Shown: in pieces, positions 595-30,788 of the stretch | Layout: each line of letters starts with the position of its first letter | How positions within the stretch are numbered: the stretch's first letter is position 1 | From: a virus | IMG/VR virus record: IMGVR_UViG_3300037508_001042 | Span: 1-31,030 of that record | DNA: 31,030 bases | Reading direction: 5' to 3' (one strand) | Notes under the pieces: generated by a model | Databases searched by the model: none | What the model saw: only the letters and a program-made list of their open reading frames with translations | Told to the model about the DNA's origin: nothing | Position numbers and translations under genes: made by a program

Positions 595-927
595 ATGAGT
601 TGCGAACCTCAGTTCGTCGGTCAGTTAGATTGGGTTTGTTTGAAAGCAGTCATCGATGACGTTCGCGGGGGCAAAGTCTCCGTGTCCACGGTTAGCAAGG
701 GGCTGTGGGTAGCCGGATGTGCTGTCGAATTGCTCGGCGCATGGGAACTGCCCAAGGTATTCGGAGATTCGGTAGAAGCAGATCGCTCTGTAACCGACAT
801 CTGCGATGAGTTGGAATCCCATATCCCAGTAGAGGGATCGATCCAAGGGCCTCCTCAAATCGACCCCGCGACAATCCTGATGATTGTCCAGCTTGTGTGG
901 AAGCTCGTCCAAGCACTCAGGAAGTAA
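595..927 (+). CDS. Hypothetical protein with hydrophobic C-terminal helix (110 aa)
   Basis: No family is recognised. The middle is Cys- and Val-rich, with a hydrophobic stretch around residues 40-50 (GLWVAGCAVELLGAW). The C-terminus has a second hydrophobic helix, ATILMIVQLVWKLVQAL, ending in a basic residue pair. This suggests membrane association or a buried helix in an oligomer. It overlaps nothing but lies only 8 bases before the next gene, which encodes an exported protein. Its place in a run of exported or membrane proteins leaves a lysis or envelope role open; that is inference only. Confidence 0.6.
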   Translation: MSCEPQFVGQLDWVCLKAVIDDVRGGKVSVSTVSKGLWVAGCAVELLGAWELPKVFGDSVEADRSVTDICDELESHIPVEGSIQGPPQIDPATILMIVQLVWKLVQALRK

Positions 928-935
928 TAGCAGCC

Positions 936-1673
936 ATGATTCGTGCAGCAGTGTTCATTATTTGGGGCCTACTGTGTTCAGTGGCTCTGGCAGATTTAGA
1001 CGTAACTGTTGTCAAGTCCCGCGTCCTGTCTGGGGTATCTAATCCCCGTGTAGTCGGGGATGTGATTCTTTACGACGGCGATCAGCCTCCTAGGGTGCTA
1101 CCTGCTGCTCAGATCACTGTTGTCACGGATTTTAAGTTCGTTCGCGTAAAAGCGCGGACGAGCTTGTTTGAAAGTTCTAATGTTCAACAGATTTCAGAAG
1201 GCGTTTATCTGTTGACCGGTTCCGGTAAATACGCAGTCGAGATCATTGCGTTTGACCCTGAAAAAGGAATCGATGAAAAGGTAGTCCAAGTGGAACTCGG
1301 TGATGTGCAACCTGATCCCAATCCCCCTGGCCCTACTCCTCCCGGGCCTGATAAACCTGTGCCACCCGATGTGTTCGATAATATCGGTCAGCGAGTCGCG
1401 GCTGCTACTGTATCAGCCCCTAGGAAACTTGAAGTCGCCAAAGTCTACCGTAATGCGGCAATCGAACTTCGAGAAAACCAATCTGTTACGGTCAACGGTG
1501 TGTTTGACAAATCTTTCCAAGAACGCGCTAGAATCGTGGGTACGAATGTAGCCGAGTGGCGGGCATTCTCTGAATTGCTGAATGCTGATGTCAAAGTCCG
1601 ATGGCCCATGAGTCGAATGACTGTAGCGGACTATTTCGACGCAGTAGCCGTAGGTCTGGAGGCAAAACAATGA
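936..1673 (+). CDS. Exported protein with signal peptide and Pro-rich linker (245 aa)
   Basis: The ATG at 936 is chosen over the upstream in-frame GTG at 897 because it opens directly into a signal peptide and has AGGAAG upstream. The signal peptide is a short basic start, a hydrophobic core (AAVFIIWGLLCSVALA) and a likely signal peptidase I site after ALA. The mature protein has a beta-rich N-terminal half, a proline-rich linker near residues 132-150 (PPGPTPPGPDKPVPP), and a helical C-terminal half. It should be exported to the periplasm or outside. The stop overlaps the next start as ATGA, so it is coupled to the papain-like peptidase gene. No enzymatic motif is seen. It may be a lysis accessory or a secreted phage protein. 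Confidence 0.7.
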   Translation: MIRAAVFIIWGLLCSVALADLDVTVVKSRVLSGVSNPRVVGDVILYDGDQPPRVLPAAQITVVTDFKFVRVKARTSLFESSNVQQISEGVYLLTGSGKYAVEIIAFDPEKGIDEKVVQVELGDVQPDPNPPGPTPPGPDKPVPPDVFDNIGQRVAAATVSAPRKLEVAKVYRNAAIELRENQSVTVNGVFDKSFQERARIVGTNVAEWRAFSELLNADVKVRWPMSRMTVADYFDAVAVGLEAKQ

Positions 1674-3811
1674 GTGGAGACTTAGGTTATAGCCCCGGCC
1701 AGATGGGATGGGTGATTCCAGGCACTCATACCGAACAAGAAATGCTTGATGCGGAAAAGCGGTACTTCGACAAGGCGTACCAAGACTACCCTTTAGCCTA
1801 TGAACAGCGGCCTGCTAGAGAAATGCCGCCCGTTATCAAGGCAAAGTGGGAAAAGTTCCAGGCAGATCGCGGAAGATTTCCAGGGTCACAGGATTTGACC
1901 CTGATTGACGAATTCGTATTCGGTCAGTCGTTTACATGGCTATCGCAGAAAATTGGCAGTTGTTTTCCAGCGGGTACGCTTATTCGCATGGCAGACGGAA
2001 GCCAAAAACCTATTGAACAGATTCGTTTGTTTGAGCAGGTTTTGACTGCTGAGGGCAATGTTTCTTATGTGTCTCAAATAGGCGGTCGCGAGGTGTCGGA
2101 AGACATCTACGAAATCAAGCTGTGGGGGCACATGCGGGTCAGAATGACCGAAGAACACCCGCTCTTGACCAAGCGAGGCTACGTCAGAGCGTCTGAACTT
2201 CGTTTGGATGACTACGTCGCTTTGCCAAAGTACGCCCCTAAGACGGCAGACTACCTACATACCACTGACCACATCGTTCAGTCCGGGCAACAGATTCGCG
2301 CTGCTAGGAAAGCCGCTGTGGGAACACACAGAACACACGGCGATTCGCATGTAAAGACCTATCGTACCGTTCCAGACGTTATCGAAATGGATAGCGATTT
2401 TGGCTGGATTTGCGGACTTTATCTAGCAGAAGGCAACACAGACCGAACAAAGTTGACTTGGACGCTACACGCCAAGGAACTTGAAACACACGCAGCTAAA
2501 CTGGCATCTTTGATGCAATCTAAGTTTGGCATCGAAGTATCGGTTACACAACCTAAGCAAAACACTTGCAAGGTTGTATTGCATTCGTGTGTATGGTCCA
2601 AGCTCTTTGAAAGCCTTTTTGGTTGCGGTTCGGGTGGTAAGCGGCTCCATGCCGACCTAGCCTCCGGCAACGAAGCGTTCCTTCGTGGGCTGCTGCAAGG
2701 TTGGCTAGACGGAGACGGACATCGTAGTGAACAAAGCAGCGACCAGGGGGCATTTTGGCAGGGTGTTAGCGTATCCAAGGCATTGGCTTTGGATATGTTC
2801 AACATTGCCCATGCCTTGGGCATGTTGCCCTCCATACAGTCTACTGACCCCAAGATTTCGCATGGGGTCAAATCCAGACAACGTCGCTATGATGTCACTA
2901 TCCGAGACAACCAACAGCCTATGCAGGCAATTGTTGAGGACTCGGTCGTCTGGAGACAGGTTCGCGGCATTGAAAAAGTGCCGTTTTCCGGCAAGGTTTA
3001 CAACTTCGAGGTTCCCGGCGATAATAGTTATGTGGCCGATGGACTCGGCGTACACAATTGCGTATGGTCGAATACTTTTCGCCGCTGGTTCGAGCGTATG
3101 TGCGTCGAAATCGCATTACTTGGCGAACCCGAGGAATACATCGGTAAACTCCAGTTCGGTCCCCAATCTATTGCGCCATTTTGCATCAATTACGGATTCG
3201 CCAGACAACGGGCAAACATGAAGGGCGGGGACGGCCTGTACTGCAAACCAATGTCGGAATCCCTGGTCAAAGATGGAGTGGTATTTTGCTCCACGCCCAA
3301 ACTTAGGGAACTGATGAATGCTGCCGGGGCCACCCGAGATACTGATTACCCGGAACCTCAGTCTGAAAGACTGTATCGCAGGATCGGGGACTGGGCCTGG
3401 AATAACGATCTTCGTCCGTATACCGCTTGCCGGGTTTTGGAGTCCACCCCGGTAACGAGCATAGAGCAGCATAACAGAAACGTAGAGCAACTAAAGCCCA
3501 TGTTTCAATGCTCCATGATTGCCATTCGCCGCATAGGGCATCACCCTGACGGATTCGCAATCCACGCGAGAGATACAAATAACGAATGGGCGCACAATAT
3601 GGGATGGGCCGGTGTAAGGATAGCCTCAGACGGTCAGCGATTCCATAGGCTATGCAACACATCCTGGCTACAGGACGGAAGCGCCGATGTAGAGAAATAT
3701 ATCTACAACGTCCCTGAAAAAGAACTGGAAGAATGGTACAGGCGGGGCAGAGTTGACACATCGAGCATCGGGGACATTGACGGCGTAAAATCCTTACCTG
3801 CAAACATCTAA
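1670..3811 (+). CDS. Papain-like cysteine peptidase interrupted by an intein (713 aa precursor)
   Basis: The ATG at 1670 overlaps the previous stop (ATGA) and has GGAG upstream. The precursor has an N-extein of 97 residues, a 366-residue intein (residues 98-463), and a C-extein of 250 residues, so the spliced product is about 347 residues. Across the junction the exteins read QKIGS then CVWSNTF. This matches the papain (C1) oxyanion Gln followed by GSC and an aromatic residue, with the +1 Cys as nucleophile. Later, WAHNMGWAGV resembles the catalytic His segment and CNTSW the Asn-Ser-Trp segment. The product is therefore probably a cysteine peptidase or a papain-fold amidase. Its target is unknown: neighbouring exported and membrane proteins suggest cell envelope work, while its place in the structural operon allows a virion role. 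The His and Asn assignments are by eye. Confidence 0.7.
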   Translation: MSGDLGYSPGQMGWVIPGTHTEQEMLDAEKRYFDKAYQDYPLAYEQRPAREMPPVIKAKWEKFQADRGRFPGSQDLTLIDEFVFGQSFTWLSQKIGSCFPAGTLIRMADGSQKPIEQIRLFEQVLTAEGNVSYVSQIGGREVSEDIYEIKLWGHMRVRMTEEHPLLTKRGYVRASELRLDDYVALPKYAPKTADYLHTTDHIVQSGQQIRAARKAAVGTHRTHGDSHVKTYRTVPDVIEMDSDFGWICGLYLAEGNTDRTKLTWTLHAKELETHAAKLASLMQSKFGIEVSVTQPKQNTCKVVLHSCVWSKLFESLFGCGSGGKRLHADLASGNEAFLRGLLQGWLDGDGHRSEQSSDQGAFWQGVSVSKALALDMFNIAHALGMLPSIQSTDPKISHGVKSRQRRYDVTIRDNQQPMQAIVEDSVVWRQVRGIEKVPFSGKVYNFEVPGDNSYVADGLGVHNCVWSNTFRRWFERMCVEIALLGEPEEYIGKLQFGPQSIAPFCINYGFARQRANMKGGDGLYCKPMSESLVKDGVVFCSTPKLRELMNAAGATRDTDYPEPQSERLYRRIGDWAWNNDLRPYTACRVLESTPVTSIEQHNRNVEQLKPMFQCSMIAIRRIGHHPDGFAIHARDTNNEWAHNMGWAGVRIASDGQRFHRLCNTSWLQDGSADVEKYIYNVPEKELEEWYRRGRVDTSSIGDIDGVKSLPANI
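1961..3058 (+). other. Intein with LAGLIDADG homing endonuclease domain (366 aa)
   Basis: The element is in frame and starts with Cys1 (block A: CFPAGTLIRMADG). It has a block B TxxH (MTEEHPLL) and ends NSYVADGLGVHN followed by a Cys at +1 (codon 3059-3061). This is a class 1 intein with terminal His-Asn and Cys nucleophiles at both junctions. Between the splicing blocks lie two LAGLIDADG-type helices, GWICGLYLAEGN (about 2402-2437) and LRGLLQGWLDGDG (about 2683-2721). Both carry an acidic residue, so the endonuclease may be active. No stop or frame break is seen, so splicing should be functional. It is inserted directly before the catalytic Cys of the host peptidase. Confidence 0.93.
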
Positions 3812-3820
3812 GGTGCTGAA

Positions 3821-4138
3821 ATGGACGAGACTCCAAACAGTTTATTAAACTGGGTTCTAGGTGCTATAGCTGCTTTGGCGGCCTCAGCCGCAGGTGTTAT
3901 CAAATACCTGTACAGTAAGACCGAGAGTGCTAATGCCTCCCGGATCAGCGAACTCCAGGCACAGGTTCAACAGCTTAAAGATATCAGCACTCGATGCGAG
4001 GATATTCGGGTACAACTTCATATCCAAGTCACCCAGCTTACGGCTGAATTGACTTTGCTAAAATCAGAACACTCTGATTTGAAGGGCCAATTCATCGAGT
4101 TGCAGCGAGAATTAACAGAATCTAACCGCCAGAAATAA
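3821..4138 (+). CDS. Single-pass membrane protein with coiled coil (105 aa), holin- or spanin-like
   Basis: The N-terminus has one hydrophobic segment (LLNWVLGAIAALAASAAGVIKYLY, residues about 8-31). The rest is a polar heptad-like coiled coil (SELQAQVQQLKDI, VQLHIQVTQLTAELTLLKSE) ending in charged residues. AAGGTG overlaps the upstream stop and serves as ribosome binding site. One membrane helix plus a long coil is seen in some small holins and inner-membrane spanins, but also in unrelated proteins. It follows the papain-like gene by 9 bases, which makes a lysis pair an attractive but unproven idea. Confidence 0.7.
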   Translation: MDETPNSLLNWVLGAIAALAASAAGVIKYLYSKTESANASRISELQAQVQQLKDISTRCEDIRVQLHIQVTQLTAELTLLKSEHSDLKGQFIELQRELTESNRQK

Positions 4139-14269: not shown

Positions 14270-14712
14270 TGCTAAAGTCGAACGAAGAAATAGTCAAGAC
14301 GGTAGGTGAACCTAAAGAAGAAGACCGATTCACAGCAGTTTTCCAGGGGACTTATTTGGAGTGGGGTACGGGGAATATGGTCAATTCTAGATGGGCCTAC
14401 GACCGACTACGCCCATCGGTTGACTCCGCGATCCAGTCTGATACCCGAGTAAATCCCGCCAAGGAACAGAAACTGCTACTGCCCGAAGGAAGTTTTGAAA
14501 TTTTCCTGGGGCACAAAGAACTGGAAATCCTAGGTAGCGATCCCCTGATGGCCGAACAGCAAAAGGGCAATGTTATTGAGGTCTATCTTGATGGAAAGTT
14601 GCATGCAATCCTCCGGCCCGGTAGGATGTTGTTCGGGGAGTTTCCTGGGGTTATTACCGTTAAAGCCACCAAAGCAACCGCTATTCTGCACATGACCGCT
14701 TTCCCATGCTAG
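14269..14712 (+). CDS. Hypothetical tail-region protein (147 aa)
   Basis: The TAATG junction couples it to the gene before. The protein has beta segments (RFTAVFQGTYLEWGTGNMV, GSFEIFLGHKELEILG, NVIEVYLDGKLHAILRPG) that suggest a small globular beta domain. No family is recognised. Placed between two tail genes with overlaps on both sides (7 bases with the next), it is probably a tail tip or baseplate component. Confidence 0.6.
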   Translation: MLKSNEEIVKTVGEPKEEDRFTAVFQGTYLEWGTGNMVNSRWAYDRLRPSVDSAIQSDTRVNPAKEQKLLLPEGSFEIFLGHKELEILGSDPLMAEQQKGNVIEVYLDGKLHAILRPGRMLFGEFPGVITVKATKATAILHMTAFPC

Positions 14713-17700
14713 GCATCCACAAAGGTTATTTTCTATCTGATGCCGACCGCAAGCGCTTAGGGCGCGTTTTAGGGGCCGCTGAAAGCGCGCCGCCTGCGTC
14801 TATGATTGCGCCGAAAGCAGGGCATTTGTTTAGTGCAGCAGATACCTACTTCGCTTTACCGCCTTGTGAGACAGGTATCCCGGCGGGGTATCTTAGAGAT
14901 GGGTACGACTCTAGTAGCGACTCCTTCGGGGCTGCAAAGTGCTGTCTGTTTAAGTATGACCGCGAAAGCAAGCGTATCATTCAGTTGTTAGATGGCGTGG
15001 GAATCCCTACCAGAGCCATAGTCTACAACGAAACCGGGTGGACAGTCAACCATCTGGTAAAAATCACAAAACATAAGAACGGGACTTGGGTAGTAGACAA
15101 AGGCGATATTGAGCAATCAAGGATTTGGCTCGGATTAAAATCCACAACCACTACAGGCACAACTACCAGCACTACCCCAAGTCCTGTGAATCTTCCTTGC
15201 CAGGGATACTGTTTATGGACTGCGAACTCCGGCCTTGCTTGGGAAGGGCCGGTAGGCGGGTGCGAGAACAGAACTACCACAAGTACAACAACCACGACCG
15301 CCGCACCCCCACCTACGACAATCGGCCCTACCACAACTGGAACAACTACCACTACTACGGCAACCAGTACAACCGCTGCCCCTTGTCTGTCCGCAAAACC
15401 CACCTGCAAGCTTAAATGCGTAGCCGTAACTACGACAGCAGGCGCATGGCCCCCTGCTCCTTCAACCGGGTTGACTTATCAGTTAGAGAATCCAGGAGCA
15501 GATGGATGCTCATCTCCTTGCACTTGCTACGGGCAGGGCGATCCCTGCTTCACTTTGAATGCGTACATCGAGAGTCGTTGTATTTTCATGGTCACTACGA
15601 CCAGTACGACAACCACTACAGAGTCGCCTAGCAATCGCCAGAATCCCTGTTTCCAAGTTAATAAGTTTGCCCCTACAGCAAGTATCCCTGCAAATACATT
15701 TCGCGCTGCTAGGATGCAAGGCGGCCTAGGGCCGTGGCAGGTTTGCAAAGAATGTGATCCAGGTTACAGACCGTTGTACCCCATCGGTGCAAAACCTCCT
15801 GTTTTGCCTAACGAAAGCGCAACAGCGGTTTACCATCAGTCTAGCTGTGTATACGACCCATGTTCCTCTGATCTGCCTTTGCCCGGTGATTACCCAGTAG
15901 GTAAAGCGGTCTACAGGGCATTCAACTGGGACAATCTTCAAACAAACTGGCAAAACGCCTTAGAGTCTGCGGACTTTCTACGATTCGATCTGAATCCGGG
16001 ACCAAGACCACTGAGTAATGCGTTTTTATATGCTGAGGAGGATGGATGGGAGATTCAAGGGTTGCAGCTACCAGGATTTCAGAACAGTTTGAACACTGTT
16101 TCTGACCCGCCTGACCGCAATCCCTTAGCGTGGTACGCACCTAACTGGTCAATATGCCAGTCATGCCCTCCAGGAACTCGGCCAAAGTTGCCCCCTCCTC
16201 GTATGCTGCCAATGGACACCTCTTGGTGGATCAGTATGCGAAACTGGTTGATAGATGACGCACCGAATGACCCAGACTGGGGATATGGCGTATTGTGGGC
16301 AGATGGAGAACGATTTGCTAGCTGGGGGCGCAGGCATGGCAGACTGGATTACGCTGAATCTGGCTCTAGGCTATGGAAATGGGAAACCCCTTGTGTTCCG
16401 GGCTACGACTGTAACCTGTGCAATTTTGCGCCAGCATGGCGCGAGATGTACGAAGAGGATTTAACTGAAACCACCCCGGCCCCTACTACTACTTTTACGA
16501 CAACCACTACGACAATCGCGCCTTGCGGTTGCAGGCCGCCTGTACGTTGTCCTGATGTAGCAGGGATGTGTGTGAGAACTGAGTGCGTTCCAGGAGGCGC
16601 AGGTACGGAGTTAGAATGTCCAGCGCCCCCTCCGGAAGCAGAGATACCGACTTGTTTTGACGGGCGAAAATGGTGCATTTGTACCAGTTCTACATCTACC
16701 ACTGGAACAGGCACAACTACTACATCCGCGCCTTGCGGACAATGTACATGGACATATGTAAGCGTGCCGATTTCATCGTCACTTAACCAGTGGCAGATGA
16801 CGGAGAGGTGTGAGAATGCTCTTAATAGTTGCCACTGTACGTTGCCTCCTGTTCCTCCTGGTACACCGGGATGCCCAGGAGGAGGCTGCTCTGGCACACT
16901 CCCGCCTAATGCAAACTGCGGGGATACTTATTCGGTTCCTTGTGGTTTGCCTCCTACTACTAGCCCGCGTCCTCCTTGTAGTAGCTGTTCCGGTACTTGC
17001 ATTTTTTATTCAGTATTTAACTTCCCGGGTACTGAGTATATATGGCAAGAGATACCATGCTATGTGTATTTAGGTGAAGGACACGGCGACTGCTGTAAAC
17101 TTGGCCCCCCGGGATGCGATAATAGTCTAGTTTCTAGTTTTGCAAATTGTCGATGCTCCGTACCGTCTGACCCTCCGACTAATGTATGCCAGATCATTCA
17201 AACAAGTTGCGGATCAGGTTATGCAGAGTGCGCATGTTGTAACACCACAAGCTGTCAACGAAAATGCACTTATAAGGGCAACGGTTATGGTGGTTGGAAT
17301 AAATTTATTGATAACTGCCCTACCACTTGTCCTTGTCCGGGCGCACCATTAGCACAAAGCCTGTCTGATTGTGACATGATCAATTTTCAGTGCGGAGAGA
17401 TTGTACCTACTCGCACCTCGACCAGTACAACCACGGGCACGGGGACTACCACAAGCACTACCACCATTGGTCCTGGAGCCTGCTGCTACCCCTGGAACGC
17501 TGCTTGTGCTGTACAAAGCCAAGTAAGCTGTGTGTCGAGTGGCGGTTCATTCCAGGGTGCGGGCAGTGTGTGTTCTCCTAACCCGTGTCCAACAACAACC
17601 ACAACAGGAACTCCTTTAGGCCGTTGCTGCGTACCGCCTAATTCTTGGGGCTGGGGATGCGGAGATGGCTACTCTCAGTGGTACTGTACCTTTATCGGAG

Positions 17701-18122
17701 GGTCTTGGACAGCCAACGCTACCTGCGGACCGCACCCATTAGCCGCTTGCGGATTCACTACCACTAGCACCACAACAACCACTATGCTACTAGGTGCTTG
17801 TTGTTGTGTTAATGTATACGTTTCTCCTGTGTCTTATAGTTGCACGGACGGTGTAGGACTGGAACAATGCCTAAGCTACTCAAACAATCAAGTTTCATGC
17901 AGTTGGAACACCGGCGTTACTTGTTTGTCCGGTAATCCCCCTTTCTGCGTGCCAGGGCCTACTGTTGTCCCGCCTAGTACCCAAGCTCCGCAAGCCCCAA
18001 CAGTCACGACAACCACGGCAGCCCCGACAACCACGGCAGCCCCGACAACCACGGCAGCCCCGACAACCACGGCAGCCCCGACAACGTCTGTGACACCTCC
18101 TAGCACCTCACCGCCTGAGTAG
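14706..18122 (+). CDS. Large Cys-rich protein with mucin-like Thr linkers (1138 aa), probable virion appendage
   Basis: The N-terminal 140 residues form a folded domain (SDADRKRLGRVLGAAES; RAIVYNETGWTVNHLV). The rest alternates Cys-rich modules with nearly pure Thr/Ser/Pro/Ala linkers at residues about 146-160, 189-226, 297-307, 587-606, 659-676, 901-923, 962-969, 1018-1027 and 1082-1138. Three modules at about 924-1081 begin GACC, GRCC or GACC and have regularly spaced Cys and a GG-S pattern, like repeats common in planctomycete surface proteins. The last linker is a DNA tandem repeat. The protein ends the tail operon and is probably an adhesin or tail appendage. Its Thr linkers are plausible O-glycosylation sites, and glycosyltransferase genes follow. 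No enzyme domain is seen. Confidence 0.75.
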   Translation: MLGIHKGYFLSDADRKRLGRVLGAAESAPPASMIAPKAGHLFSAADTYFALPPCETGIPAGYLRDGYDSSSDSFGAAKCCLFKYDRESKRIIQLLDGVGIPTRAIVYNETGWTVNHLVKITKHKNGTWVVDKGDIEQSRIWLGLKSTTTTGTTTSTTPSPVNLPCQGYCLWTANSGLAWEGPVGGCENRTTTSTTTTTAAPPPTTIGPTTTGTTTTTTATSTTAAPCLSAKPTCKLKCVAVTTTAGAWPPAPSTGLTYQLENPGADGCSSPCTCYGQGDPCFTLNAYIESRCIFMVTTTSTTTTTESPSNRQNPCFQVNKFAPTASIPANTFRAARMQGGLGPWQVCKECDPGYRPLYPIGAKPPVLPNESATAVYHQSSCVYDPCSSDLPLPGDYPVGKAVYRAFNWDNLQTNWQNALESADFLRFDLNPGPRPLSNAFLYAEEDGWEIQGLQLPGFQNSLNTVSDPPDRNPLAWYAPNWSICQSCPPGTRPKLPPPRMLPMDTSWWISMRNWLIDDAPNDPDWGYGVLWADGERFASWGRRHGRLDYAESGSRLWKWETPCVPGYDCNLCNFAPAWREMYEEDLTETTPAPTTTFTTTTTTIAPCGCRPPVRCPDVAGMCVRTECVPGGAGTELECPAPPPEAEIPTCFDGRKWCICTSSTSTTGTGTTTTSAPCGQCTWTYVSVPISSSLNQWQMTERCENALNSCHCTLPPVPPGTPGCPGGGCSGTLPPNANCGDTYSVPCGLPPTTSPRPPCSSCSGTCIFYSVFNFPGTEYIWQEIPCYVYLGEGHGDCCKLGPPGCDNSLVSSFANCRCSVPSDPPTNVCQIIQTSCGSGYAECACCNTTSCQRKCTYKGNGYGGWNKFIDNCPTTCPCPGAPLAQSLSDCDMINFQCGEIVPTRTSTSTTTGTGTTTSTTTIGPGACCYPWNAACAVQSQVSCVSSGGSFQGAGSVCSPNPCPTTTTTGTPLGRCCVPPNSWGWGCGDGYSQWYCTFIGGSWTANATCGPHPLAACGFTTTSTTTTTMLLGACCCVNVYVSPVSYSCTDGVGLEQCLSYSNNQVSCSWNTGVTCLSGNPPFCVPGPTVVPPSTQAPQAPTVTTTTAAPTTTAAPTTTAAPTTTAAPTTSVTPPSTSPPE
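18008..18079 (+). repeat. Four 18-nt tandem repeats coding TTTAAP
   Basis: The unit GACAACCACGGCAGCCCC occurs four times without change at 18008, 18026, 18044 and 18062, and a partial fifth copy follows at 18080. It codes the repeat TTTAAP near the C-terminus of the Cys/Thr-rich protein. Identity at the DNA level suggests recent expansion by slippage. Confidence 0.95.
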
Positions 18123-21881: not shown

Positions 21882-22481
21882 TTATACCACCGTAATTAGA
21901 TGCCCAACGTCCATGAATTCAGAGATGTGCGTGACCAGAATTATCTGTATTCCCAACTCCTCTGACAACTCAACCATGAGTCGCTTCACGTTTTCGCGGT
22001 ACTGCTCGCTTAGGAACCTGAACGGCTCATCCAGAATCAGTACCTGCGCCGGGCGGGGGCGCATCAACGCAAGACATGCGAGGCGTAGCCCGAATGTCAC
22101 TACGTCCAAAATGCCCCCGCCCACGCTTTGTACGGGGTCCAATTCGTTGCCCTGGGCATCGATTAGAACAGCCCGGGCTTCTGTCTGGCCCCGTTTGAGT
22201 TCAAACACCAAACGAAACTGGTACGATTCGGAACCAAAGACAGCCTGCAAACATCGCGTTACTACGGTGTTTATTTGAGCCTGTGCGGTTTCCTGGCATT
22301 CTGCACCTATCTGCCGAATGACTTCTTTGGCGGTTTCTTGGAATCTTTGTCGATCCTGTGCATACATAAGCTGTGCCCTAGTATCTTCAAGTTGTCTCTG
22401 CTTGAGGGATAATTCGCTACTTAGCCTGTGCAGCTTGGATCGCGTCAGCGTATTGGGTCTGGAATTGTTCGTAGTCGGCAT
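21882..22481 (-). CDS. Rad50/SbcC-like ATPase, C-terminal lobe (199 aa)
   Basis: After a helical arm (residues about 15-75) come the ABC-type signature SVGGG (119-123), Walker B VLILDEPF (147-154) and the switch His in ILVTHISEF (185). These are the C-terminal half of a Rad50/SbcC-type ATPase; the Walker A half is encoded separately at 23697-24701. The two halves must join to make the ATP-binding site, and with the nuclease at 22807 would process DNA ends. The ATG at 22481 has AAGGGAG eight bases upstream, and it overlaps the coil gene by 65 bases in another frame. A single ancestral frame broken by small indels is the alternative explanation. Confidence 0.85.
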   Translation of the reverse strand: MPTTNNSRPNTLTRSKLHRLSSELSLKQRQLEDTRAQLMYAQDRQRFQETAKEVIRQIGAECQETAQAQINTVVTRCLQAVFGSESYQFRLVFELKRGQTEARAVLIDAQGNELDPVQSVGGGILDVVTFGLRLACLALMRPRPAQVLILDEPFRFLSEQYRENVKRLMVELSEELGIQIILVTHISEFMDVGHLITVV

Positions 22482-22674
22482 CGAGTAGGCTCCCTTCTTG
22501 TCTTAAAAACTCGTCCAAGCGATCCAGTTCCTCCGAAGCATCTTCTACGGAATCAAAGCCGAGTTCATTCAACGATTTCATCAACTGTTTCTGCTCCCCC
22601 TCCAGACGGGCTTTCGCCATCTGCAAAGATTGGAGTTCCTTTACGAGTTTGTCGAGTTTGTTGGCAGCTACCAC
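22417..22674 (-). CDS. Coiled-coil piece of split Rad50-like ATPase (85 aa)
   Basis: From a GTG at 22674 preceded by AAGGGGAAG, the frame reads VAANKLDKLVKELQSLQ and continues with heptad-like text (LEGEQKQLMKSLNELG, SEELDRLDEFLRQEGSLLD) to IQAAQAK. It lies between the nuclease gene and the ATPase C-lobe and looks like the returning arm of a Rad50 coiled coil. A GTG at 22755 in the same frame would add 27 residues without clear protein character. The neighbouring frames on both sides are offset by +1, so this may be a separate gene or one piece of a frame-broken one. Confidence 0.6.
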   Translation of the reverse strand: MVAANKLDKLVKELQSLQMAKARLEGEQKQLMKSLNELGFDSVEDASEELDRLDEFLRQEGSLLDADYEQFQTQYADAIQAAQAK

Positions 22675-22828
22675 AGTTACGTCTTCCCCTTGGTTTGCAT
22701 GGACTGATTCCTGGTCTATACCCGAACGGGCATTCAAGTAAATGCTCGTTCCCACTGCCCGAGGCTATGTACAAGACCTCTTGGCAGTGTCTACATAAGT
22801 ATCGATCTATTTCCGAGTCTGCTCCCAC
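22565..22828 (-). CDS. Possible small zinc-ribbon protein overlapping the coil gene (87 aa)
   Basis: A GTG at 22828 with GAGGGA upstream overlaps the nuclease stop by 22 bases. The first 45 residues look like a zinc ribbon: YLCRHCQEV, then about 20 residues later LLECPFGYRPG. After about residue 45 the frame looks like an out-of-frame reading of the coil gene, so only the N-terminal part is likely to be under selection. The ribbon may be a free small protein, or may join the coil by a +1 shift. The upstream ATPase half ends in CPSC, so paired zinc sites are conceivable. Confidence 0.4.
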   Translation of the reverse strand: MGADSEIDRYLCRHCQEVLYIASGSGNEHLLECPFGYRPGISPCKPRGRRNCGSCQQTRQTRKGTPIFADGESPSGGGAETVDEIVE

Positions 22829-23724
22829 ACTTCCCTCAAAATTTTAGAAAGTTCTAGGCAAGCGGCGTTTTCAGCAGCGCGGAAAAGACGATCCGAAAAA
22901 GACTCTGATACAGTCTCTAGGCTACCGAGAGCCGCGATTACATCGTCCGCGACCTTTTCAGTCAAAGACGCTTCGTACCTGGGGGTCTGCCACTTAGGGG
23001 CAGGCACATCGTACTCGTACCATTCTGCAAGGCCCGAAGAAGATAGCAAGCCGTAGGCGGGTTTGTGATCCATCTGGTCCCGTTTCATGGGAATCAGGCT
23101 ACCGGGATTCCCTGCCTCCAGGGTGTTCCACCGGATGTGATTGTCCCCGATAAGTATGTAATCCACTAACTTGTTGTTTGCTGATAAACACGCGCGATAC
23201 TCTGCGTCCTCTGGCGCTCCGTAGTATTTGCTTGGGCTTGAATCTGTGTAGACATACTTGTGGATCACTTGTAAAGAAACCTCACTATGTGTCAACGGCC
23301 CGTGATCGGGAAATAGATACCGACCCCAGGGATTGGCCCAAACCGCTAATCCACCTCTGATTACGGTCCATGCTTCGGGTATCAAGTCATGGATAATGCC
23401 AGCTTTTACCAGTGCCCCGTATGCCCCGTCCATTCGCCTTTCGTAGTCATGCCCATTCAAGTCATGTTGCCCCGGAATTGCATACATCTCAGGTAAGTAG
23501 TCAATGGCCCACGAAACAAGTTCAGCCGGGGGATTCCATCGGTCGAATACGTCTCCCGCGCAGATAATCGGTATTCCGTAGCGATAAGACACCTCTTGCA
23601 GGTTATTTAAGTACGGAAGCATGACATCGTACCAGTTCGATTCGGCACGGCCCGAGGGGACCGTATGACGAAGGTGCAAGTCAGAACAAAGAACTGCTAC
23701 AGGGGACGGTTGCATGATGGGCAT
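22807..23724 (-). CDS. Mre11/SbcD-like nuclease (calcineurin-like phosphoesterase, 305 aa)
   Basis: Metal-binding motifs appear in order: SDLHLR (D15, H17), AGDVFD (D58), PGQHD (residues 84-88, with Gln where GNHD is usual) and IGDNH further on. These define the Mre11/SbcD family of phosphoesterases, which cut DNA ends together with a Rad50/SbcC ATPase. AAGGAGA lies at a good distance before the ATG at 23724. The start overlaps the N-lobe gene by 28 bases and the end overlaps the small zinc-ribbon frame. A role in recombination-dependent replication, as for T4 gp46/gp47, is likely. Confidence 0.88.
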   Translation of the reverse strand: MPIMQPSPVAVLCSDLHLRHTVPSGRAESNWYDVMLPYLNNLQEVSYRYGIPIICAGDVFDRWNPPAELVSWAIDYLPEMYAIPGQHDLNGHDYERRMDGAYGALVKAGIIHDLIPEAWTVIRGGLAVWANPWGRYLFPDHGPLTHSEVSLQVIHKYVYTDSSPSKYYGAPEDAEYRACLSANNKLVDYILIGDNHIRWNTLEAGNPGSLIPMKRDQMDHKPAYGLLSSSGLAEWYEYDVPAPKWQTPRYEASLTEKVADDVIAALGSLETVSESFSDRLFRAAENAACLELSKILREVWEQTRK

Positions 23725-24701
23725 ACTGGAATCTCCTTGATCTGGGACTGGGTTTGGGATATCTCGGTATCTTTGATAGCGATTGACAAGTTGCAGCTTT
23801 TTGCCTGTGCTACTAAGACTGCTAGTCGATCTCTCTTTTGTTTCATATGTGCTACAGTTTCAGCCCTGGCAAGCAAAGATTCGATTACGTCGTAAAATTT
23901 CTGACCAGGAAATTTACGGTTCAGAATGTTGTCAACCACCTTTTTTAGGGAATCCCGGCGAGAACCGTGTTCGCGGTATTGTCGGACTGTCTCCACAAAC
24001 AGAGAAAGCCAGCCCTCCATGTCCCTGTATTTCTGTAATTTTGCGTCCGATTCAGTTAAACGCAAAACCTTTATTTCCAGGGCGGCATAGCGGCACTCAG
24101 CCGATTCTAGCTTTGTGGCGCGTTCGTCTAGCAAAGCCAGCTTGTCCACAGCCTCTTGGACCCAAAGCAGTTCTTCTACGCCCTTGGCTAGTCTAGCCTC
24201 TTCTTCTTGGTATGTTGTGACCTGTGCTTTCGTTTTCGTCACCCGGCTGTTGATCTCAGCCATCGATTCATCAATGACCGAAAGATCGACTATCCGGTTT
24301 AGCTCCTTAGCCATTTGTCCCGGGGTCAGAGAAAGCAGAAACACGGGATCATGCTGGCCCTGAAAGTTAATGTCCTCCATCGCTAATAACTGGCTAACCG
24401 GGACGGGTTGCTGTGTTCCCGTAGCCAGATACTTTTGGCCGTTGACCGAGTATCCGTAGTTCTTTTTGTCCTTGAACCGAATTACTAATCCTTTGTCTGT
24501 CTTGATCCCGACTCGCGTGTCATCGGTTCCGTGGGTGGGCAGACCACTGATCGGGCGATGTTCTACAAGCCATCGAATCGCACGGATAATTGCTGACTTG
24601 CCAGTATCGCTCTGGCCCACGATAGCCGTAATGTGAGGGCCAAATGTGACCTGGAGGTCTTTGTGCCGTTGGAAATTCTTGAGTCGTAATTCTTGAATCA
24701 T
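23697..24701 (-). CDS. Rad50/SbcC-like ATPase, N-terminal lobe ending at a zinc hook (334 aa)
   Basis: Walker A is GQSDTGKS (residues 29-36), after the standard opening LRLKNFQRHKDLQVTF. The Q-loop lies in NFQGQHDP. A long coiled coil fills about 140-320. The protein stops four residues after CPSC (327-330), the zinc-hook motif that normally sits at the middle of a full-length Rad50. The returning coil and Walker B lobe are encoded separately downstream, after the nuclease gene. The start overlaps the exonuclease-fusion stop as ATGA. The split at the hook would need two or more chains to assemble. Confidence 0.88.
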   Translation of the reverse strand: MIQELRLKNFQRHKDLQVTFGPHITAIVGQSDTGKSAIIRAIRWLVEHRPISGLPTHGTDDTRVGIKTDKGLVIRFKDKKNYGYSVNGQKYLATGTQQPVPVSQLLAMEDINFQGQHDPVFLLSLTPGQMAKELNRIVDLSVIDESMAEINSRVTKTKAQVTTYQEEEARLAKGVEELLWVQEAVDKLALLDERATKLESAECRYAALEIKVLRLTESDAKLQKYRDMEGWLSLFVETVRQYREHGSRRDSLKKVVDNILNRKFPGQKFYDVIESLLARAETVAHMKQKRDRLAVLVAQAKSCNLSIAIKDTEISQTQSQIKEIPVCPSCNRPL

Positions 24702-25897
24702 CTGAGGGGTAGATATTTCTTAGGTACAAAATGTTCCTTGACCAGTTCTGCCTCGACCATCTGGACGCTAGCCAGGATCAGTTCGACGGCAGAGTCTATC
24801 CCATTGTATGTCAGCAACGGTACGAGAGGCGCGGCGGCAATGTTATTGGGTTGAGAGTTTTCTTCGCTATGAAAGTACTTCTCGACCTCGTCCGCAAAGA
24901 ACGGGACTCCGAGCCGGGCAAATGCCTGAAATTTCAAACCCGTTATCCCGCTCATGGGGTTTTCTATGTGGGCCGCCTGCATGGTATCGAACCACAGGTT
25001 CTTCGGCCACACCCCTAGCTTCTGGTAACTCCACCTAGCCTCGAATTTCATGTTCGCGGCAATCTTCTTTCCTGGGGATTCCAGGTAAGCGCGAATGCGA
25101 TCATGGTGTTCTTTGTAGACTGGGAATGCCACGCTACGCAGTTCCCCCTCGGCAACGAATGCAATGGACATAGTCCAAATCCGCATTCCTTGGAACTCGG
25201 GCTTTATCCCGTTCGTCTCGTAGTCAAAGGCAGAGAGATCGAGTGTGGCGGCCTGCGTCAGGAACTGGCCGATCTTCGCAGGATCGGTAAGAACCGTGAC
25301 GCAATCCTTGATATCCGGAACCCCGTGGTCCCACGGGCGACTAGCCAGACGCACCGCATCCCGTAGCCATCGGTACGCCCACATCTGGCTGATGTCCATC
25401 TGCCCCTTCTGAGGGGCCACAATCCCCACCGGACAAATCCACGCATTAAGCTGTTGGCAAGGAATCTGATGGCCGTACCACCGGTCAAATAGCTCTGCCG
25501 GTCGCTGCCAGAACCTGCCCACGACACTCTGAGTAGCCTTAGACCCGAACGGAATGACGACACGGGGACGCAATCTACTTAGCTCAGAGGCCATCAAAGG
25601 CTGGCAGTGCCGCCAAGCCTCCTCAGAGGCCCCAAAACACGCGGAAGCGGGTACTAGGACATAATCCCGCATCTCGATGCCAACACGCTTACAGAGGCCG
25701 TCTAAGCGATTATAGGGGCTATCCTGCAACCCGCTCGGAGAATCCTGCTCGACACCGTCCACAACAAAGACGATATCAGCCTGTTTTCCAGGCCATGTAA
25801 GCTTAGGGCTGCGACATTTTGCCGCAGCCCCACAAGCATTGCAGTTCGGTAACACAGATAACTGTTTTGTTATCTGCGGTTTAGTTAGTAGTGGCAT
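24698..25897 (-). CDS. Uracil-DNA-glycosylase-like domain fused to 3'-5' exonuclease (399 aa)
   Basis: The N-terminal part (residues about 15-185) starts with CNACGAAAKC, a Cys pattern like iron-sulfur family 4/5 uracil-DNA glycosylases. It continues with IVFVVDGVEQD, VLVPASACF and RPRVVIPFGSKA, matching the fold order of that family, although catalytic residues are not clear. The C-terminal part is a DnaQ-like proofreading exonuclease: Exo I in SAFDYETNG, Exo II in ANMKFEARW and Exo III in LLTYNGIDSA. Glycosylase-like and exonuclease modules precede a polymerase in SPO1-type DNA polymerases; here the gene stops after the exonuclease. The polymerase module should be encoded elsewhere. Junctions overlap on both sides (TAATG, ATGA). 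Confidence 0.75.
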   Translation of the reverse strand: MPLLTKPQITKQLSVLPNCNACGAAAKCRSPKLTWPGKQADIVFVVDGVEQDSPSGLQDSPYNRLDGLCKRVGIEMRDYVLVPASACFGASEEAWRHCQPLMASELSRLRPRVVIPFGSKATQSVVGRFWQRPAELFDRWYGHQIPCQQLNAWICPVGIVAPQKGQMDISQMWAYRWLRDAVRLASRPWDHGVPDIKDCVTVLTDPAKIGQFLTQAATLDLSAFDYETNGIKPEFQGMRIWTMSIAFVAEGELRSVAFPVYKEHHDRIRAYLESPGKKIAANMKFEARWSYQKLGVWPKNLWFDTMQAAHIENPMSGITGLKFQAFARLGVPFFADEVEKYFHSEENSQPNNIAAAPLVPLLTYNGIDSAVELILASVQMVEAELVKEHFVPKKYLPLR

Positions 25898-30692: not shown

Positions 30693-30713
30693 TGATTACC
30701 CTCCTGAATTAAG

Positions 30714-30788
30714 TTCCCCTAGATGGAGTTGAACCATCAAATCGGCCACGAAACGTGCCGCGTTTTTCCTGGATTAAACTATAGGGGA
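30714..30788 (-). tRNA. tRNA-like structure with defective anticodon arm (possible decayed tRNA)
   Basis: On the minus strand a 75-base cloverleaf can be drawn. The acceptor arm is TCCCCTA with TAGGGGA, the D arm is GTTT with AAAC and a loop containing GG, and the T arm is GATGG, TTCAACT, CCATC, with a perfect TTCRANY loop. Lengths between the arms are normal. The anticodon arm (CGGCA, CGTTTCG, TGGCC) has two mismatches, or one bulged G if shifted, and lacks the usual T at position 33, so no anticodon can be read safely (TTT by position). CCA is not encoded. It may be a decayed or highly diverged phage tRNA. It lies between the operon start and the partial gene. Confidence 0.5.

Follow-up and report, generated by a model that had tools for sequence, protein, structure and literature searches.

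The intein and its host gene

The window, by which we mean the whole stretch of DNA analyzed here, is a virus record of 31,030 bases. An open reading frame on its plus strand (1670-3811, 713 aa) harbors a complete class-1 intein. The frame is open from the ATG at 1670 to the stop at 3811, and its start overlaps the stop of the upstream gene in an ATGA. The intein occupies 1961-3058 (366 codons, precursor residues 98-463); the interval 1961-3061, in which a first-pass annotation had placed it, adds the codon of the +1 Cys, TGC (3059-3061). The spliced product is predicted to be 347 aa long, and the reading frame confirms the length proposed in that annotation. The features of the gene and its neighbors, all on the plus strand, are listed with the evidence for each.

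897-1673, plus strand: exported (signal-peptide) protein, function not assigned, directly upstream of the intein-bearing gene (ORF list)
1670-1960, plus strand: N-extein, host residues 1-97, ending Q93-K-I-G-S97, with Gln93 the predicted oxyanion-hole Gln (ORF; alignment with intein-free homologs)
1961-3058, plus strand: class-1 intein with LAGLIDADG homing endonuclease, 366 aa (PF14890, LAGLIDADG_3, Hom_end, intein_Cterm)
1961-1963, plus strand: intein Cys1, in block A, CFPAGTLIRMADG (sequence; phage inteins align with it from residue 1 in tblastn)
2144-2167, plus strand: block B, M-T-E-E-H-P-L-L, with Thr B:7 and His B:10 (sequence)
2414-2437, plus strand: LAGLIDADG motif 1, GLYLAEGN, acidic residue retained (sequence)
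2699-2722, plus strand: LAGLIDADG motif 2, GWLDGDGH, acidic residue retained (sequence; the LAGLIDADG_3 match covers residues 240-304)
2990-3058, plus strand: blocks F and G, GKVYNFEVPGDNSYVADGLGVHN, with penultimate His and terminal Asn (sequence; TIGR01443)
3059-3808, plus strand: C-extein, host residues 98-347 (ORF; alignment)
3059-3061, plus strand: +1 Cys, Cys98, the first residue after the splice and the predicted nucleophile, residue 3 of the invariant GSCVWSNTFR (alignment)
3593-3595, plus strand: His276, the predicted catalytic His, in H-N-M-G-x-x-G (papain-type H-x5-G), invariant in four of four sequences (alignment)
3656-3667, plus strand: Asn297-x-Ser-Trp300, with S-W invariant and Asn in three of four sequences (Thr in L113) (alignment)
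3821-4138, plus strand: small membrane and coiled-coil protein downstream, with a weak phrog_1009 match (PHROG profile)

The Pfam profile Intein_splicing (PF14890) matches the intein with an E value of 8e-14, and LAGLIDADG_3 (PF14528, 2e-5) and Hom_end (PF05204, 9e-5) match it as well, all above the Pfam cut-off; the NCBIfam profile intein_Cterm (TIGR01443), which describes the C-terminal splicing region, also scores above its cut-off. Cys1, a block B T-x-x-H (here T-E-E-H), the C-terminal His-Asn and the +1 Cys are all in place, as in class-1 inteins, and both endonuclease motifs keep an acidic residue, as in LAGLIDADG homing enzymes. Profiles, motifs and seamless junctions agree on the intein that the first-pass annotation had described from its plainly visible splicing blocks. 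A scan of viral contigs found no close relatives of this intein.

Intein-free homologs and the insertion site

Three homologs of the extein that lack an intein were found in uncultured phages, at 46-54% identity. With the extein alone as query, direct scans gave no relative in viral or genome contigs, and the homologs were recovered only by means of a degenerate DNA pattern for W-x2-Q-x-I-G-S-C-V, followed by an alignment-guided scan. The pattern gave one homolog present on two contigs (L110 and L113, 49% identity), and the scan added L115 (54%; L115:4935-5972) and L118 (46%), with nothing new in a final scan for further homologs. The other pattern matches, three of five (L111, L112, and L114), fell in an unrelated protein. 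A tblastn match to Klebsiella phages was also discarded, being a low-complexity, His-rich alignment in a frame that starts outside the annotated gene. Together with the extein, the homologs define a previously undescribed phage protein family with four distinct members.

No intein was seen in any of the three homologs, which are continuous over the site (YPQDIGS/CVWSNTFRPW, LPQDIGS/CVWSNTFRPW, and RPQETGS/CVWSNTFRRI, where the slash marks the position of the intein) and share the reading Q-x-x-G-S/C-V-W-S-N-T-F-R. Since the homologs run without a break across the junction, the insertion can be placed exactly, between Ser97 and Cys98. No other invariant run in the four-sequence alignment is as long as the block that is split in this way, GSCVWSNTFR, which has 10 columns against at most four elsewhere. 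The first-pass annotation had equated the +1 Cys with a key residue of the host protein, and the alignment bears this out in that the extein family keeps this Cys without exception.

Extein motifs and genomic context

Active-site residues of clan CA peptidases occur in the order Gln, Cys, His, and then Asn or Asp. The extein motifs stand in this papain order, as Gln, Cys, His (in H-x5-G), and (N)-x-S-W, and Gln93, Gly96-Ser97-Cys98, His276 with its H-x5-G, and Ser299-Trp300 are invariant in all four sequences. A motif pattern, Q-x2/3-G-x-C ... H-x5-G ... N/D-(x)-S-W, was matched by one of 9,460 shuffled ORFs and by 7 of 100,000 shuffles of the extein, figures that serve only as a guide because the pattern was designed with the protein already in view. 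Among 946 real ORFs of 200-500 aa from all loci, the only matches were the extein family and a family that sister phages carry in the same genomic slot. Given this very low background, the papain-like call is stronger than the short motifs on which it was originally based, and it is still a motif-based call.

A profile search with the extein alone, proposed along with that call, did not support it. The papain C1 profile (PF00112) does not match the extein family, and no significant match to any peptidase family was seen among Pfam, PHROGs, and NCBIfam profiles; NlpC/P60, CHAP, and similar amidases were absent from the Pfam, NCBIfam, and PHROGs results up to E values of 1-10, and a PDB sequence search with the family gave no match. 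The likeness to PF00112 lies in the order Gln, Cys, His-x5-Gly, Asn-(x)-Ser-Trp, while the spacing departs from that of papain at two places: the Gln is 5 residues before the Cys rather than 6, and the Asn, which is a Thr in L113, is 3 residues before the Trp rather than 2. AlphaFold models from a shallow alignment of 4 sequences had mean pLDDT values (31.7, precursor; 35.8, L115 protein) too low for a papain fold to be judged from them.

The genomic slot offers a second line of comparison. Sister phages share head and tail genes with the window, including a 311-aa tail-region protein that is 58-61% identical, and between the major capsid and tail genes they carry a different gene with papain motifs (NQAxLGKC, GNHA, ENSWG). 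The window has the intein-bearing gene in that same capsid-tail slot. The sister-phage proteins (L017, L018, L019, and L022-L038) resemble the extein in slot and motif order, but they have no intein, and no significant sequence or profile-profile similarity was found between the two families. In a more distant relative, L079, the papain-motif protein has a weak PF00112 match in the right region (E 0.46). In the sister phages the papain-motif gene is immediately followed by one for a protein that has a membrane anchor, a thioredoxin-like C-x-x-C (NCPPC, PCPAC), and a Cys-rich segment (L017:13667-13999; L018:1126-1635 and L019:1455-1964, both on the minus strand); this protein could serve a cysteine enzyme as redox partner.

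It is conceivable that the extein is not a cysteine peptidase at all, such that Cys98 is structural, serves some other chemistry or belongs to a papain-like fold that has lost catalysis, and the intein just went into the block with the highest conservation. The lack of a family match at every sensitivity used, the triad spacing that is off by one at two places, and an Asn that varies fit this reading. Set against this are the invariance of Gln, GSC, H-x5-G, and SW in papain order and the papain-motif gene that sister phages carry in the same slot, and we regard a non-peptidase as unlikely. The motifs instead make Cys98 a probable papain-type nucleophile, and the extein family a probable new family of papain-like (clan CA) cysteine peptidases or amidases.

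The neighboring genes hint at where such an enzyme may act. Exported proteins similar to the one upstream of the intein-bearing gene precede the peptidase gene in L113/L116, L115, and L118, as judged by eye, and a small membrane or coiled-coil protein is encoded downstream in both the window and L115, where the two proteins (3821-4138 and L115:6822-7127) have in common a weak match to phrog_1009. Because these neighbors are exported and membrane proteins, they suggest a role in the envelope or in lysis.

Gene order in this region varies. In L118 (5001-9269) the peptidase gene lies before the scaffold/protease-like and major capsid genes, and in the window it comes after the capsid gene; the position of the peptidase module with respect to the head genes has shifted. 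Elsewhere in the window, a 1138-aa tail-region protein (14706-18122) has Cys-rich segments with long Thr-rich repeats (TTTTST, TTAAP) in between and is followed by a gene resembling a glycosyltransferase fused to a second enzyme domain. On the minus strand, an SbcC/Rad50-like ATPase is apparently split into separate genes that flank an SbcD-like phosphoesterase gene (21882-24701), an apparent uracil-DNA-glycosylase-like domain is joined, by sequence reading, to a 3'-5' exonuclease domain (24698-25897), and a tRNA-Asn (GTT) lies at the window edge (30713-30788).

Predicted splicing and homing, and the probable catalytic cysteine

The account that we favor, and consider likely, is that a homing class-1 LAGLIDADG intein has entered a gene in the late region of an uncultured tailed phage, and that this gene belongs to the probable papain-like family. 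After translation, Cys1 and Cys+1 would carry the acyl shift and the transesterification, the terminal Asn would cyclize, and Ser97 would then be joined to Cys98. Only after splicing would Cys98 follow Gln-x-x-Gly-Ser and stand at the head of the helix needed for a papain-type site. Until then 366 residues separate the predicted nucleophile from Gln93 and Gly96-Ser97, so the precursor should be inactive and splicing obligatory. On this point the first-pass annotation, which held that the precursor has no active site, should be right, from the anatomy of the protein.

That annotation also considered it notable that an intein should use the catalytic Cys of its host as its own splicing residue. 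Inspection of the junctions of the nearest phage inteins, which are 20-27% identical to this one, places the arrangement among known cases. The inteins in C5-methyltransferases of Escherichia phage P1 (Dmt), Lactobacillus phage Nyseid, and EBPR siphovirus 2 likewise have a LAGLIDADG endonuclease and sit directly before the Cys of P-C-Q, which is their +1 residue (GGTP/CQAFS in P1 Dmt, GFP/CQDIS in Nyseid, SCP/CQPFS in EBPR, with the slash again marking the intein); they differ in being only 23-24% identical and in having a methyltransferase rather than a peptidase as host. The thymidylate synthase intein of Aeromonas phage PS1 (20% identity, again in another enzyme) has as its +1 residue the Cys of P-C-H (P/CH). 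The Cys of P-C-Q (PF00145) and that of the thymidylate synthase P-C-H (PF00303) are both catalytic. Two further inteins, at 24% identity, are in ribonucleotide reductase, a radical enzyme: in Enterococcus phage vB_Efa29212_3e the +1 residue is a conserved Cys in an S-C motif where the barrel domain begins, and in Tenacibaculum phage PTm1 the N-extein ends before the Cys at intein position 1, with a match that stopped short of the C-terminal junction. Pfam matches confirm the host enzyme family in Nyseid, P1, PS1, and the Enterococcus phage; the EBPR host match is below the Pfam cut-off, but starts at the +1 Cys. The catalytic Cys of a host enzyme thus serves as the +1 residue in other phages too, and the new element here is the host protein; in a literature search of partial coverage, no intein was seen to be described from a papain-like peptidase.

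Placement in an active site is in fact the norm for inteins, and it has been explained by protection from loss (PMC3359363, PMC7765530). In one survey, native intein sites were on average 8.3 A from active-site residues, compared with 21.1 A for other Cys/Ser/Thr positions, and it was argued that blocking of the host protein selects for splicing (PMC3359363); mycobacteriophage inteins show the same active-site theme (PMC5050341). The position before Cys98 is best understood as the usual protection of a selfish element from deletion rather than an evolved switch.

The first-pass annotation went further and read splicing as an activation switch. In such a scheme, splicing would be conditional on redox state, temperature, metal or timing, and the peptidase would become active only late in infection or in the virion. 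Two essential cysteines stand at the junctions, the gene sits among exported and membrane proteins, and conditional splicing has been described for other inteins (PMC6195587, PMC7360933, PMC5790916), all of which would suit regulation. Three homologs without an intein, however, need no switch, the endonuclease motifs are intact, as expected for a young selfish element, and the active-site position is already explained by the general tendency of inteins. We therefore consider a regulated switch very improbable, and the chance is slimmer still that the intein acts as a built-in propeptide, making an intein-blocked zymogen that regains its catalytic Cys only through splicing whose timing depends on a signal, for example redox state. 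Precursor inactivity follows from the anatomy, but a regulatory switch does not; nothing in the sequence points to regulated splicing, and the intein looks like an ordinary homing element. That the intein sequence was wrongly joined to the gene during assembly has a negligible probability, for although the gene is on a single contig and is not covered by the closest relative, L004, both junctions are in frame and codon-exact (His-Asn/Cys), and the base composition of the intein (0.507) is like that of the exteins (0.498 and 0.517), giving no sign of a chimera.

As it stands, the homing-intein account agrees with the known preference of inteins for active-site codons, and a probable cysteine peptidase joins the enzymes that lend their nucleophilic Cys to a phage intein. 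If splicing were to prove conditional, the protein would be a natural intein-gated protease.
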